64,000 nt of DNA from Microbacterium sp. Marseille-Q6965 (GTDB taxonomy: Bacteria; Actinomycetota; Actinomycetes; Actinomycetales; Microbacteriaceae). The stretch lies in assembly GCF_946151065.1 (NCBI RefSeq), contig NZ_CAMGZA010000001.1, forward strand, positions 496,001 through 560,000, read 5' to 3'. The translations under genes and the position numbers were made by a program. The notes below the pieces were generated by a model that saw only the letters and a list, made by a program, of their open reading frames with translations, searched no databases and had not been told where the DNA came from. This document shows, piece by piece, positions 20,542 through 48,178 of the stretch (position 1 is the stretch's first letter; each line of letters opens with the position of its first letter).

Positions 20542-20615
20542 TTGCGGGGGCAGGATTTGAACCTGCGGCCTCCGGGTTATGAGCCCGGCGAGCTACCGAA
20601 CTGCTCCACCCCGCG
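20542..20615 (-). tRNA. initiator tRNA-fMet (CAU)
   Basis: The cloverleaf reads CGCGGGG acceptor, anticodon loop CUCAUAA and T-loop GGTTCAAAT. Two initiator hallmarks are visible: the C1-A72 mismatch at the end of the acceptor stem, and three consecutive G-C pairs at the base of the anticodon stem. The 3' CCA is not encoded. A TAGGCT -10 lies just upstream and a strong hairpin just downstream, so it is a single-gene transcript. Confidence 0.95.
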
Positions 20616-45104: not shown

Positions 45105-45140
45105 GCGCTGAGGCCGTCGGCGACGGTCGGGCCTCAGCGC
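45105..45140. terminator. terminator between convergent genes
   Basis: An 11-bp stem GCGCTGAGGCC and its complement around a 14-base loop, after the aminopeptidase P stop. The right arm includes the stop codon of the cystathionine enzyme, so it can serve both strands. Confidence 0.65.
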
Positions 45141-46291
45141 AGCGCGTCGTCCAGGTCCTGCAACAGGTCGTCGACGTCCTCGATGCCGACCGAGAGGCGC
45201 ACGACCTCCGGGGGCACCGCGAGCGCCGTGCCGCGGACGGAGGCGTGCGTCATCGCGTCCGGGTAGTTCACGAGCGACTCCACGCCACCGAGCGACTCGG
45301 CGAGCTGGAAGAGGCGGGTGCCCTCGGCGAAGCGCCGGGCGGCGGCCGCATCCTCCAGCGCGAGGGACACCATGCCACCGAAACCCGACATCTGGCGTGC
45401 GGCGATCTCGTGCCCCGGGTGCGTCGGCAGGCCCGGGTAGAAGACGCGCGCGACGCGGTCGTGTTCGTGCAGGAAATCGGCGATCCGCCGCGCGTTGGCG
45501 CTGTGCCGCTCCATCCGCAGACCCAACGTCTTGATTCCTCGTGTGGTGAGCCAGGCGTCGAGGGGCCCGGAGACAGCACCCGCTCCGAACTGCAGGAAGC
45601 CGACCCGTTCCGCGAGCGCGTCGTCGTCGAGTACCACGGCCCCGCCGACGACGTCGGAGTGCCCCCCGAGGTACTTGGTCGTCGAGTGCACGACCACGTC
45701 GGCCCCGAGCGTGAGCGGGCGCTGCAGGGCGGGCGAGGCGAAGGTGTTGTCGACGACCACCGTCGCGCCGTGTTCGTGGGCGAGCCCGGCCAATGCCGCG
45801 ATGTCGACGATCCTCAGCAGCGGGTTGCTCGGAGTCTCGAGCCACACCACGCGCGGGCCCTCGCGCCGCAGCGCCTCCGCGACCGCCTCGGCGTCGCCGA
45901 GGTCCGCGACCGTCACGCGGACACCCCACGGGCCGAGGATGCGGGTGAGCAGCCGATAAGTGCCGCCATACACATCGTCGCCCAACAGCACCGCGTCGCC
46001 CGGCTGCAGCAGGGCGCGCAGCAGCGCGTCCTCGGCCGCGAGCCCCGACGCGAACGACAGGCCGTGCCGCCCGCCCTCGAGTGCGGCGAGCTGCCGCTGC
46101 AGGGCCGTACGCGTGGGGTTGCCGCTGCGGCCGTACTCGTACCCGTCGCGCAGGCCGCCGATCCCGTCCTGCACGTAGGTGGACGAGAGATGGACGGGCG
46201 GAATCACGGCGCCCGTCATCGCATCGGCGTGCTGTCCGGCGTGCACCGCCTCGGTGTCGAATCGGGGGCGGTGGGCGGAAGCGTCGTTCAT
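45134..46291 (-). CDS. cystathionine gamma-lyase/gamma-synthase (PLP)
   Basis: A 385-residue Cys/Met metabolism PLP enzyme. Motifs include YEYGRSGNPTR, FASGLAAEDALL, VWLETPSNPLLRIVDI and the PLP lysine in HSTTKYLGGHSDV. Sequence alone does not separate gamma-lyase from gamma-synthase. The upstream cystathionine beta-synthase, 13 bases away, favours gamma-lyase, which would release cysteine. GAGGAGACC precedes the ATG. The operon lies behind a Cys-rich leader ORF. Confidence 0.88.
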   Translation of the reverse strand: MNDASAHRPRFDTEAVHAGQHADAMTGAVIPPVHLSSTYVQDGIGGLRDGYEYGRSGNPTRTALQRQLAALEGGRHGLSFASGLAAEDALLRALLQPGDAVLLGDDVYGGTYRLLTRILGPWGVRVTVADLGDAEAVAEALRREGPRVVWLETPSNPLLRIVDIAALAGLAHEHGATVVVDNTFASPALQRPLTLGADVVVHSTTKYLGGHSDVVGGAVVLDDDALAERVGFLQFGAGAVSGPLDAWLTTRGIKTLGLRMERHSANARRIADFLHEHDRVARVFYPGLPTHPGHEIAARQMSGFGGMVSLALEDAAAARRFAEGTRLFQLAESLGGVESLVNYPDAMTHASVRGTALAVPPEVVRLSVGIEDVDDLLQDLDDALR

Positions 46292-46304: not shown

Positions 46305-47339
46305 TCAGGCTCGGGGGTCGCCGGCGCCGGGTCGCAGCCGGCGGGCGGGCGTTCGGCGGGCGGGCATGGTGGGGGTGAAGACGGGCGCGGCGGTCCCAGG
46401 GTGCGCGCCGCCGGCTTCATCGAACACGGTGCCGAGGTACCCGCGCCCGTGATCGGGCAGCAGCACCACGACGAGGGCATCGGCGGGAAGGTCTCGGGCC
46501 ACCCGCAGCGCGGCCACGACGGCGAGCCCGCTGGAGCCCCCGACCAGCAGCCCCTCCTCCCGGGCGAGCCGACGCGCCATGGCGAACGACTCGGCATCGC
46601 AGACACGCTCGTAGGCGTCGACGACCCGCGGATCGAACGTGCCCGGCCAGAAGTCCTCCCCCACGCCCTCGACGGCGTAACGGTGCACGGGGCCGCCGGA
46701 GTAGATCGACCCCTCGGGATCCGCCCCGACGATGCGCACGCGGCCCGCGGACGCCTCGCGCAGGTACCGCCCGGTGCCCGTGATCGTGCCCCCGGTCCCG
46801 ACTCCGGCGACGAAGTGCGTCACGGCGCCGTCGGTGTCGCGCCAGATCTCGGGGCCGGTGGTCTCGTAGTGGCTGCGGGGGCCGTGCGGGTTGTCGTACT
46901 GATTCGGCTTGTACGCGCCAGGGGTCTCGGCCACGATGCGGTCCGAGACGCTGTAGTACGAGCGGGGGTCGTCGGGCGACACGTCGGTGGGCGTCACGAC
47001 CACCTCCGCCCCATACGCCCGGAGCACCGCGCGCTTGTCCGGCGAGACCTTGTCGGGCACGACGAAGATCGTGCGGTAGCCGCGCTGTTGCGCGACGAGA
47101 GCCAGGCCGACTCCCGTGTTGCCGCTGGTGGGCTCGACGATGGTGCCTCCGGGCCGGAGACGTCCGTCGCGTTCGGCCGCGTCGATGATGCGGGTGGCGA
47201 TGCGGTCCTTCGCCGAGCCGCCCGGATTGAAGTACTCGACCTTGGCGAGGACCGTGGCGGCGATCCCCTCGGTCACGCGATTGAGCCGCACGAGCGGGGT
47301 GTTGCCGACGAGGTCGGCGATGGTGCGCGCGTAGCGCAT
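46305..47339 (-). CDS. cystathionine beta-synthase (no CBS regulatory domains)
   Basis: A 344-residue fold-type II PLP enzyme joining homocysteine and serine. The PLP lysine is K44 (NPGGSAKDR), with EPTSGNTGVGLA, GVGTGGTITGTGRY and VGGSSGLAVVAA. Tyr/Asp-rich text such as YYSVSDRIVAETPGAYKPNQ resembles the beta-synthase rather than the O-acetylserine sulfhydrylase group. It ends without the paired CBS domains found in M. tuberculosis Rv1077. Its 5' leader of about 100 bases carries a Cys-rich ORF and a hairpin. Confidence 0.87.
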   Translation of the reverse strand: MRYARTIADLVGNTPLVRLNRVTEGIAATVLAKVEYFNPGGSAKDRIATRIIDAAERDGRLRPGGTIVEPTSGNTGVGLALVAQQRGYRTIFVVPDKVSPDKRAVLRAYGAEVVVTPTDVSPDDPRSYYSVSDRIVAETPGAYKPNQYDNPHGPRSHYETTGPEIWRDTDGAVTHFVAGVGTGGTITGTGRYLREASAGRVRIVGADPEGSIYSGGPVHRYAVEGVGEDFWPGTFDPRVVDAYERVCDAESFAMARRLAREEGLLVGGSSGLAVVAALRVARDLPADALVVVLLPDHGRGYLGTVFDEAGGAHPGTAAPVFTPTMPARRTPARRLRPGAGDPRA

Positions 47340-47395
47340 GGGTGATTCCTCTCGGAGCCGCGCCGCGGCGCGGATGCTGTCGATGGCTGCCGGAA

Positions 47396-47413
47396 GAGCG
47401 CGCGAGCGCGCTC
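47396..47413 (-). promoter_or_regulatory. hairpin following the cysteine leader ORF
   Basis: GAGCGCG-CTCG-CGCGCTC is a perfect 7-bp stem starting inside the stop codon of the leader ORF. A ribosome paused on the Cys codons or at the stop would change whether it forms. A second GC palindrome (47358-47373) precedes the ribosome site of the synthase gene. Confidence 0.6.
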
Positions 47414-47441
47414 AGCGACAACAGCGACAGGTGAGGATCAC
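47412..47441 (-). CDS. cysteine-rich leader peptide MILTCRCCR
   Basis: Nine codons starting with GTG and ending TGA: Met-Ile-Leu-Thr-Cys-Arg-Cys-Cys-Arg. All three cysteine codons are TGT, although genes in this window mostly use TGC. A CAGGCT element ends six bases before the GTG, so the peptide is probably read from a leaderless transcript. It lies about 70 bases upstream of the cystathionine beta-synthase gene. Cys-rich leaderless ORFs of this kind attenuate cysteine-related operons in mycobacteria; the same role is inferred here. Confidence 0.7.
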   Translation of the reverse strand: MILTCRCCR

Positions 47442-47447
47442 GTCGTC

Positions 47448-47453
47448 AGCCTG
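47448..47453 (-). promoter_or_regulatory. -10 CAGGCT of the leader peptide and transsulfuration operon
   Basis: CAGGCT keeps the A at position 2 and T at position 6 of the TANNNT pattern, with a 6-base gap to the leader GTG. Confidence 0.45.
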
Positions 47454-47509
47454 CCGCACTCCCCCCGCGATGCGGCGGCATGTGACGAAAGATTGCGGCG
47501 GCCTCGGGT

Positions 47510-48178
47510 CTACGCGGTGAGAACGAAGTCCGCCACGAGAGGCGCGAGGCCGCGCCCGATCTCGTCGGCGGGCCGGCGAGCGCCCTTCACCTCGAAGGAG
47601 TGGCCCGCGCCCGCGACCCACGCGATCCGCGCGTCGCGGCACGCGGCAACCGCCTCCTCGAGCTGCGCGTGCGGGTCGACGAACGGATCGTTCTCACCCT
47701 CGACGAACAACTGCGGAGGGACGACACGGGGCAGGTGCTCGGTGCGGGGCTTGTCGGGGCGGCCGGGCGGGTGCAGCGGGTAGCCCAGGTACACCAGACC
47801 CTCCACGTCCGCATCGCCCTCCGCGGCGACCATCGACGCCATCCGTCCCCCGTACGACTTGCCACACGCCCACACGCGCTCCGCCCGTGAGCGTGCCTCG
47901 GCGAGGGCGGCGCGCCACGCGAGGATCGCGTGGGCGGCCGGTCCCGGCATGCGCCGGCCGGCGGCGACGTAGGGGAACTCGAACCGCAGCGTGCGCACGC
48001 CGAGGTCGTTCAGCCCCGCGGCGAACCCCCGCAGGAAGGGGTGATCCATCCCGGAGCCCGCGCCGTGCGCGATCACGACCGTCTGCGCCGCGTCACGGGG
48101 TCCGCTCCACGCGGCGCCGATCTCGACCCGGCCGGCCGGCAGCGCCACCGGAACGCGGATGCGCTCCTCGTCGGTCAC
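47510..48178 (-). CDS. alpha/beta hydrolase, dienelactone hydrolase-like
   Basis: A 222-residue hydrolase of the YdeN/KANL3-like group. TVVIAHGAGSGMDHPFL begins the fold, the nucleophile elbow is GKSYGGRMAS, the acid is in EGENDPFVDPH and the histidine in GAGHSFEV. The substrate is unknown. The GTG start (MTDEERIRV) overlaps, in GTGA, the stop of the general stress protein frame. An uninterrupted frame joins it to that protein's N-terminus, but the joining stretch is Arg/Gly-rich and looks like out-of-frame sequence. Confidence 0.82.
   Translation of the reverse strand: MTDEERIRVPVALPAGRVEIGAAWSGPRDAAQTVVIAHGAGSGMDHPFLRGFAAGLNDLGVRTLRFEFPYVAAGRRMPGPAAHAILAWRAALAEARSRAERVWACGKSYGGRMASMVAAEGDADVEGLVYLGYPLHPPGRPDKPRTEHLPRVVPPQLFVEGENDPFVDPHAQLEEAVAACRDARIAWVAGAGHSFEVKGARRPADEIGRGLAPLVADFVLTA

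Follow-up and report, generated by a model that had tools for sequence, protein, structure and literature searches.

Does the short, cysteine-rich open reading frame (ORF) in front of a cystathionine beta-synthase (CBS) gene of Microbacterium sp. Marseille-Q6965 control that gene, and through which step? The locus lies on the minus strand of a 64,000-nt stretch of contig NZ_CAMGZA010000001.1, here called the window. A preliminary description of this DNA took the ORF for a leader through which cysteine controls the genes behind it, an interpretation that the sequence comparisons below support. Conservation and RNA modelling suggest that the CBS operon is likely under cysteine-responsive translational attenuation by this conserved nine-codon leader, which is predicted to be leaderless, a reading to which we assign a probability of about 0.68. 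The genes and leader elements are as follows.

47448..47453, minus strand: predicted -10 hexamer CAGGCT, 6 nt before the leader GTG (TAnnnT at equal spacing in relatives)
47412..47441, minus strand: leader ORF of nine codons, (M)ILTCRCCR, with GTG start and TGA stop, predicted leaderless, with the G of GTG as transcript start
47418..47429, minus strand: the Cys codons (47429-47427, 47423-47421 and 47420-47418), all TGT, with one Arg codon between the first two
46305..47339, minus strand: CBS, catalytic part, 344 aa, without the C-terminal CBS-domain pair
45134..46285, minus strand: gene of the cystathionine gamma-synthase/lyase family, 383 aa, 19 nt after CBS

The nine-codon ORF with its three TGT Cys codons is present as originally claimed, the minus-strand reading at 47441-47412 being GTG ATC CTC ACC TGT CGC TGT TGT CGC TGA. 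It is separated by 72 nt from the ATG of CBS (47339) and sits inside a 170-nt gap, the nearest upstream ORF on the same strand ending at 47510. The window CBS matches TIGR01137 over positions 3-312 of 457 with 479 bits, under the cut-off of 510, and its only Pfam domain is PALP, whereas a long CBS of the genus (L217) additionally has PF00571. The second gene passes the NCBIfam cut-off of cystathionine gamma-synthase (PRK07811), not that of gamma-lyase. The earlier label of the pair as CBS and a gamma-lyase that make cysteine, and with it the direction of the pathway, is uncertain. In Bifidobacterium longum, according to excerpts of PMC11540073, a CBS homologue was able in vitro to form cysteine from acetylserine and H2S, and its neighbour degraded cysteine.

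We compared the upstream regions of 65 CBS genes, hereafter the Microbacterium set, of which 20 came from a genome scan and 45 from 59 genomes of the genus (this CBS gene being present in 45 of the 59). Two of these regions are an identical pair (L008 and L104). By title or genus code most of the set is Microbacterium, the exceptions being Aurantimicrobium (L009), two unclassified Microbacteriaceae (L006, L021) and L016. The last comes from an assembly titled Planococcus sp. APC 4015 with a Microbacterium-type CBS (78% identity) and leader, and is probably mislabelled or contaminated. A leader precedes CBS in 55 of the 65 loci (20/20 from the scan and 35/45 from the genus genomes). It is 8-12 codons long and encodes MLTCRCCR or variants such as MSLTCRCCR, MALTCRCCR, MLTCRCCRPCC, MLTLRCCRR and MLSCRCCR. 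With a strict detector (at most 20 codons, at least two Cys in the last seven, TAnnnT 5-8 nt before ATG or GTG, and at most 300 nt from CBS) the ORF is found in 53/65 loci, compared with 0/65 reverse complements and a mean of 0.05 in 20 rounds of dinucleotide shuffling. By these controls the leader ORF at CBS is not a chance occurrence.

The ORF has stayed while its flanks have drifted, the pattern that had been put forward as a check: among 32 distinct core-class leaders the mean frequency of the commonest base is 0.95 in the last 18 nt plus stop, against 0.43 at -50 to -20 and 0.56 just after the stop. A covariance model built from 22 sequences and searched against 149 genus genomes gave one match per genome in 81 of them, and of the 36 genomes in which both positions are known, 35 have the match next to CBS, no more than 34 nt away. 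In the 36th (G029) it is a weak match of 30.8 bits on a different contig, not repeated at E 0.001. Two individual loci deserve mention. In L226 the CBS gene is split over two neighbouring matches that differ in frame, owing to a broken gene or a sequencing error, and the leader before it looks intact. L209, a short-CBS genome scored as leader-free with no ATG or GTG in the leaderless position, has the run TGT TGT TGT TGC about 95 nt upstream of CBS, which would be a leader that has decayed or that starts differently.

In 53 of the 55 leaders of the set the distance from the end of TAnnnT to the start codon is 6 or 7 nt, and the mRNA is therefore predicted to be leaderless. In the Aurantimicrobium leader TAnnnT ends 9 nt before the start, and the window hexamer CAGGCT (CAnnnT, spacing 6) is atypical as the only non-TAnnnT among the 55. 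Elsewhere in the same genome there are 24 matches to TGYTGYCGNTRA, of which only the one at CBS has a start codon with -10 spacing. Upstream regions of cysK-like genes in the genus carry a leader in 0/20 cases, cysK being called from second-best identity to CBS only. Hence a second leader in the same genome was dropped as a candidate after searches that covered TGYTGYCGNTRA with this geometry and the cysK-like regions.

Beyond the genus, a CBS gene occurs in 68 of 90 family genomes, the window's own included. At the other 67 loci the strict detector found a leaderless-type Cys ORF in 17, with 0/67 in reverse complements and a mean of 0.0 in shuffles. Three more leaders, lacking TAnnnT, were seen by eye (VINTRLCCCCL, MNFSSTCCCL and VITRLCCCCR), which brings the total to 20/67, with none visible in the remaining 47. 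A nucleotide-pattern search added one further genus (VTFTCRCCR). As a family-wide probe this pattern was too narrow (9/299 genomes), and CBS neighbourhoods were therefore used for the survey. By genus code, leaders thus occur in 21 other genera of the family, and their peptides, for example VSTVKSCCCCR, MFAGFRCCRR, VFVNLLCCRR and MSQLCCRR, are otherwise unrelated, yet the Cys codons, RNA pairing and leaderless geometry all recur. The expectation that the Cys codons would be conserved in relatives is borne out by these 21 genera together with the 55/65 loci of the Microbacterium set. In other families of the order, 5 of 41 CBS loci, a count that excludes three further loci belonging to Microbacteriaceae, have a leader (MVLCTRLCCC, MVLCIRLCCC, VLTCRCRP, MMYLSCCCCR and MQIFSCCCR), and these represent three families. 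The strict detector, limited to 300 nt from CBS, found none at 60 loci outside the family. When the search was extended to 400 nt in Bifidobacterium, two of three loci had a leader (MINRSCCCR and MTYFSCCCCR), both with TACGGT 7 nt before the ATG.

The Cys codons of the leaders are nearly all TGT (167 TGT to 12 TGC among 179 codons of 61 distinct leaders). This agrees with the contrast first noticed in the window, where the genes use TGT 4 and TGC 90 times (40 GC3-filtered ORFs, a filter that may slightly disfavour TGT). The ratio is 8 to 59 for genes in 20 loci of the Microbacterium set and 4 to 35 for genes at the other-genera loci. When all Cys codons were changed to TGC, 68 of 76 leaders lost predicted fold stability and 7 gained it, with a mean change of 4.4 kcal/mol. 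This folding test suggests that UGU is kept over UGC because it also forms the strand that pairs in helix P2 (see below). The TGT bias would thus have at least partly a structural cause, and slow decoding may act alongside it. As a separate observation, an Arg codon directly follows the last Cys in 59 of the 76 leaders (R, RR, RH, RL or RS before the stop), with RNA pairing (TGTCG) and a peptide effect as alternative causes.

The predicted mRNA of the window (112 nt) folds into a closed multibranch structure with the following elements.

47433..47441, minus strand: P0 5' strand, the first nine bases GUGAUCCUC (nt 1-9), predicted to pair with the CBS Shine-Dalgarno region
47342..47351, minus strand: P0 3' strand in the predicted fold, GAGG (the Shine-Dalgarno core), a bulged A and AUCAC
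47396..47413, minus strand: P1 hairpin of 7 bp, starting inside the stop codon, from the fold and species swaps
47377..47392, minus strand: P2 3' strand, predicted to form two helices with the Cys codon stretch 47430-47416
47358..47373, minus strand: P3 hairpin before the Shine-Dalgarno sequence, from the fold and the covariance model

Its energy is -51.9 kcal/mol, against -43.0 for shuffles (z -2.62), with 2 of 200 shuffles equally stable. Both palindromes pointed out earlier are found here: a perfect 7-bp hairpin that merges with the leader stop (GAGCGCG-CTCG-CGCGCTC, its first bases inside TGA), and a second, GC-rich one ahead of the CBS ribosome site (hairpin 47373-47358). Fold tests used 40 sequences kept from 54 distinct leaders of the Microbacterium set after removal of near-duplicates. 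The native sequences fold better than middle-shuffled versions in 40/40 and their Cys-codon pairing is above the shuffles in 39/40, in a test that holds both ends fixed and is uninformative on P0. In an alignment of 59 covariance-model matches, two of which (L088 and L103) lie outside the leader and are due to chance, covariation scores 0.171, compared with 0.105 when shuffled and at most 0.071 when slid, and 15 of 23 modelled pairs change on both sides. In this alignment, which is fitted to the model itself, only 78.8% of cells in modelled pairs are paired, and about 63% in the P1 columns, which counts against the proposed fold. RNAalifold on a MAFFT alignment yielded only six pairs, and in none of them did both sides change, since hairpin arms of unequal length had been misaligned; the covariance model replaced it. 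At the CBS leaders, the hairpins and the Cys-codon pairing are conserved with covariation.

Species swaps bear on P1 and P0 separately, with the proviso that kinship among the sequences inflates all swap and shuffle tests. The arms of P1 fit their own genome better than in any of 20,000 swaps (61 sequences), and for the 21 other-genera sequences alone 148 of 20,000 swaps were equally good. For P0, the native match between the first 11 nt and the 22 nt upstream of CBS exceeded all 20,000 species swaps (61 sequences); 21 of 20,000 were equally good for the 21 other-genera sequences. Within the 40 Microbacterium-set sequences the corresponding numbers are 1189, 417 and 633 of 20,000 with 9, 11 and 13 nt, and the native pairing is better in 30/40 than shuffles around the Shine-Dalgarno core and in 28/40 than leader-end shuffles. 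The comparison across genera therefore gives good support for pairing of the mRNA 5' end with the Shine-Dalgarno region, and the Microbacterium set on its own gives only moderate support.

These elements suggest a switch. With ample Cys-tRNA, the ribosome would clear the leader and the RNA would close: P1 would form at the stop codon, the Cys codons would pair with the P2 strand, and the mRNA 5' end including the start codon would pair with the CBS Shine-Dalgarno region (P0), leaving CBS poorly translated. With scarce Cys-tRNA, the ribosome would stall at the first UGU codons and cover roughly nt 1-25, so preventing P0 and P2 and freeing the Shine-Dalgarno sequence with P1 still folded. A ribosome positioned at the first Cys codon of a leaderless mRNA would have a footprint of about nt 1-25, which holds strands of P0 and P2. 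In a stall model with P1 held, which leaves out four sequences without a recognisable Shine-Dalgarno core, the mean unpaired probability of the core rises from 0.29 to 0.43 (57 sequences), increasing by more than 0.2 in 18 and decreasing in 1, and in the window it goes from 0.00 to 0.31. With P1 free it rises from 0.30 to 0.39 in the 40 Microbacterium-set sequences (up in 8, down in 2) and from 0.32 to 0.51 in 17 sequences from other genera (up in 7, down in 0); the window core then reaches only 0.09, i.e. it is not freed. The stall models thus free the core in a minority of sequences, and we take them to support translational attenuation without proving it.

The main rival keeps the same cysteine-sensing leader and replaces sequestration of the Shine-Dalgarno sequence by Rho-dependent transcription termination in the C-rich spacer between leader and CBS. 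Rho was proposed for actinobacterial cys and cbs leaders by Seliverstov et al. (excerpts of PMC1262725), and the search for an intrinsic terminator came up empty, with 0 terminator-like sites at 47300-47560 and hence none between leader and CBS. The spacer has a mean C content of 0.47 and G content of 0.26, with C above G in 61/61 sequences (25 C and 19 G in the window), and this is why we leave Rho some probability. However, the spacer is strongly structured, and the Shine-Dalgarno region varies in step with the mRNA 5' end. In addition, a ribosome stalled close to the 5' end would open up the C-rich strand instead of shielding it, so that a Rho model would predict the wrong sign. Taken together we consider Rho an improbable output.

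Somewhat less probable still is that the leader is real and works by another route, with ribosome occupancy altering mRNA stability or delivering ribosomes to CBS and the fold being secondary. In mycobacteria, short leaderless ORFs often precede genes, and further routes have been considered for them (parts of PMC4633059), but the distance from leader stop to CBS start (64-192 nt, median 76) is far for coupling, and the fold is conserved with covariation. The strong nucleotide conservation and the inverted repeats might also point to an operator or a regulator-bound RNA that reads as a Cys-rich ORF by accident. We regard this as very unlikely, given that the DNA is largely different in the 21 other genera, yet the start at fixed -10 spacing, the Cys run and the stop share one frame. 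That the peptide itself acts in trans, e.g. by binding metal through its closely spaced Cys residues, often followed by Arg, appears the most remote of all: the peptides share little except the Cys run, the leader is a single copy adjoining CBS, and the strong synonymous TGT bias is not required by peptide function. The only Rfam match at the curated threshold in the whole window is a tRNA (20542-20615), with no riboswitch or T-box.

Cysteine-responsive translational attenuation by a leaderless leader would have counterparts. Polycysteine leaderless short ORFs in mycobacteria reportedly act as cysteine-responsive attenuators (Canestrari et al. 2020, Mol Microbiol 114:93); in that work, the stalled ribosome is said to prevent an RNA structure in which the downstream ribosome site is hidden, and a genome is said to have several of these leaders acting together. 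Such mycobacterial attenuators are cited in passages of PMC9031893, PMC9094748 and PMC13236596, and Shell et al. 2015 detected Cys leaders among the leaderless transcripts of mycobacteria (excerpts of PMC4633059). The Microbacterium-type leader shares with them a short ORF, here predicted to be leaderless, with clustered Cys codons before cysteine-related genes, kept in relatives. It differs in its length of 8-12 codons, in being found once per genome, at CBS, in its almost exclusive use of TGT for Cys and in an mRNA 5' end that is the predicted anti-Shine-Dalgarno strand. On this anatomy, membership in the mycobacterial type is plausible.

Seliverstov et al. 2005 predicted Cys leaders in mycobacteria and Propionibacterium acnes, and one at the cbs gene of B. 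longum, which like those here has a Cys run near the stop of a short ORF upstream of cbs. That paper (PMC1262725) found no conserved hairpins in aligned mycobacterial cys leaders, whereas the CBS leaders here have conserved hairpins and Cys-codon pairing. In the LEU element at actinobacterial leuA it is the Leu codons that bind the Shine-Dalgarno box, and the structure was proposed to include a pseudoknot (same excerpts), whereas in the CBS leader the start region would pair with the Shine-Dalgarno sequence and the Cys codons with a separate strand. Because a cbs Cys leader had been predicted in B. longum in 2005 (PMC1262725, in part), the extension of the mycobacterial mechanism, correct in that the leader is kept in Microbacteriaceae, is less new than the preliminary description held. 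Transcription attenuators of the trp type likewise use a leader peptide in which ribosomes stall at codons of the amino acid being sensed, but the window lacks an intrinsic terminator between leader and CBS. No prior report of such a leader in Microbacteriaceae was among the matches listed in our literature search. Leifsonia xyli belongs to this family. It is in the genome list of PMC1262725, and the portion of the paper at hand gives no leader for it. If our reading is true, cysteine attenuation by leaderless mini-ORFs extends beyond mycobacteria to Microbacteriaceae. Bifidobacterium has related leaders, and so do three other families of the order, among which its own may be. The sensor would consist of only 8-12 codons, its 5' end would be the anti-Shine-Dalgarno strand, and the TGT bias would be tied to RNA structure.

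The leader was also compared with the form of the enzyme. Two CBS lineages occur in the Microbacterium set, a short one without the C-terminal CBS-domain pair and a long one (L214-L221 and L225). With short and long assigned by length (<430 aa) and Pfam run on one of each, the leader is found in 55/55 short-CBS and 0/9 long-CBS loci of the set (one contig is cut), in 5/7 and 16/61 in other genera, and in 3/4 and 2/37 outside the family. SAM activation of the M. tuberculosis CBS acts via the C-terminal domain. The CBS enzyme of M. tuberculosis is allosterically activated by SAM (PMC9232105, in part). The 55/55 against 0/9 raises the possibility of a trade-off between the regulatory domain of CBS and an RNA leader. 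On a tree of 162 CBS proteins, from which L226 (row too short), L104, L134, L224 and 28 of the 35 loci L046-L080 were left out, the leader state changes 15 times and the short/long state only 2 times. Loss of the regulatory domain was therefore rejected as a correlate of the leader, and the link between short CBS and leader is a lead, not a correlation. A tentative idea, which we hold to be rather doubtful, is that the switch lies in the leaderless start codon itself: roughly the first nine mRNA bases would serve as ribosome entry for the leader and as anti-Shine-Dalgarno strand for CBS, so that two entries compete for one helix, and since the sensor accompanies the CBS lineage without the C-terminal regulatory domain, control would have moved from protein (SAM) to RNA (cysteine). 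One locus in another family of the order (L284; family f12, genus g96) has a short CBS with the leader VLTCRCRP, nearly identical to that of Microbacterium, and here leader and CBS gene may have been horizontally transferred together.
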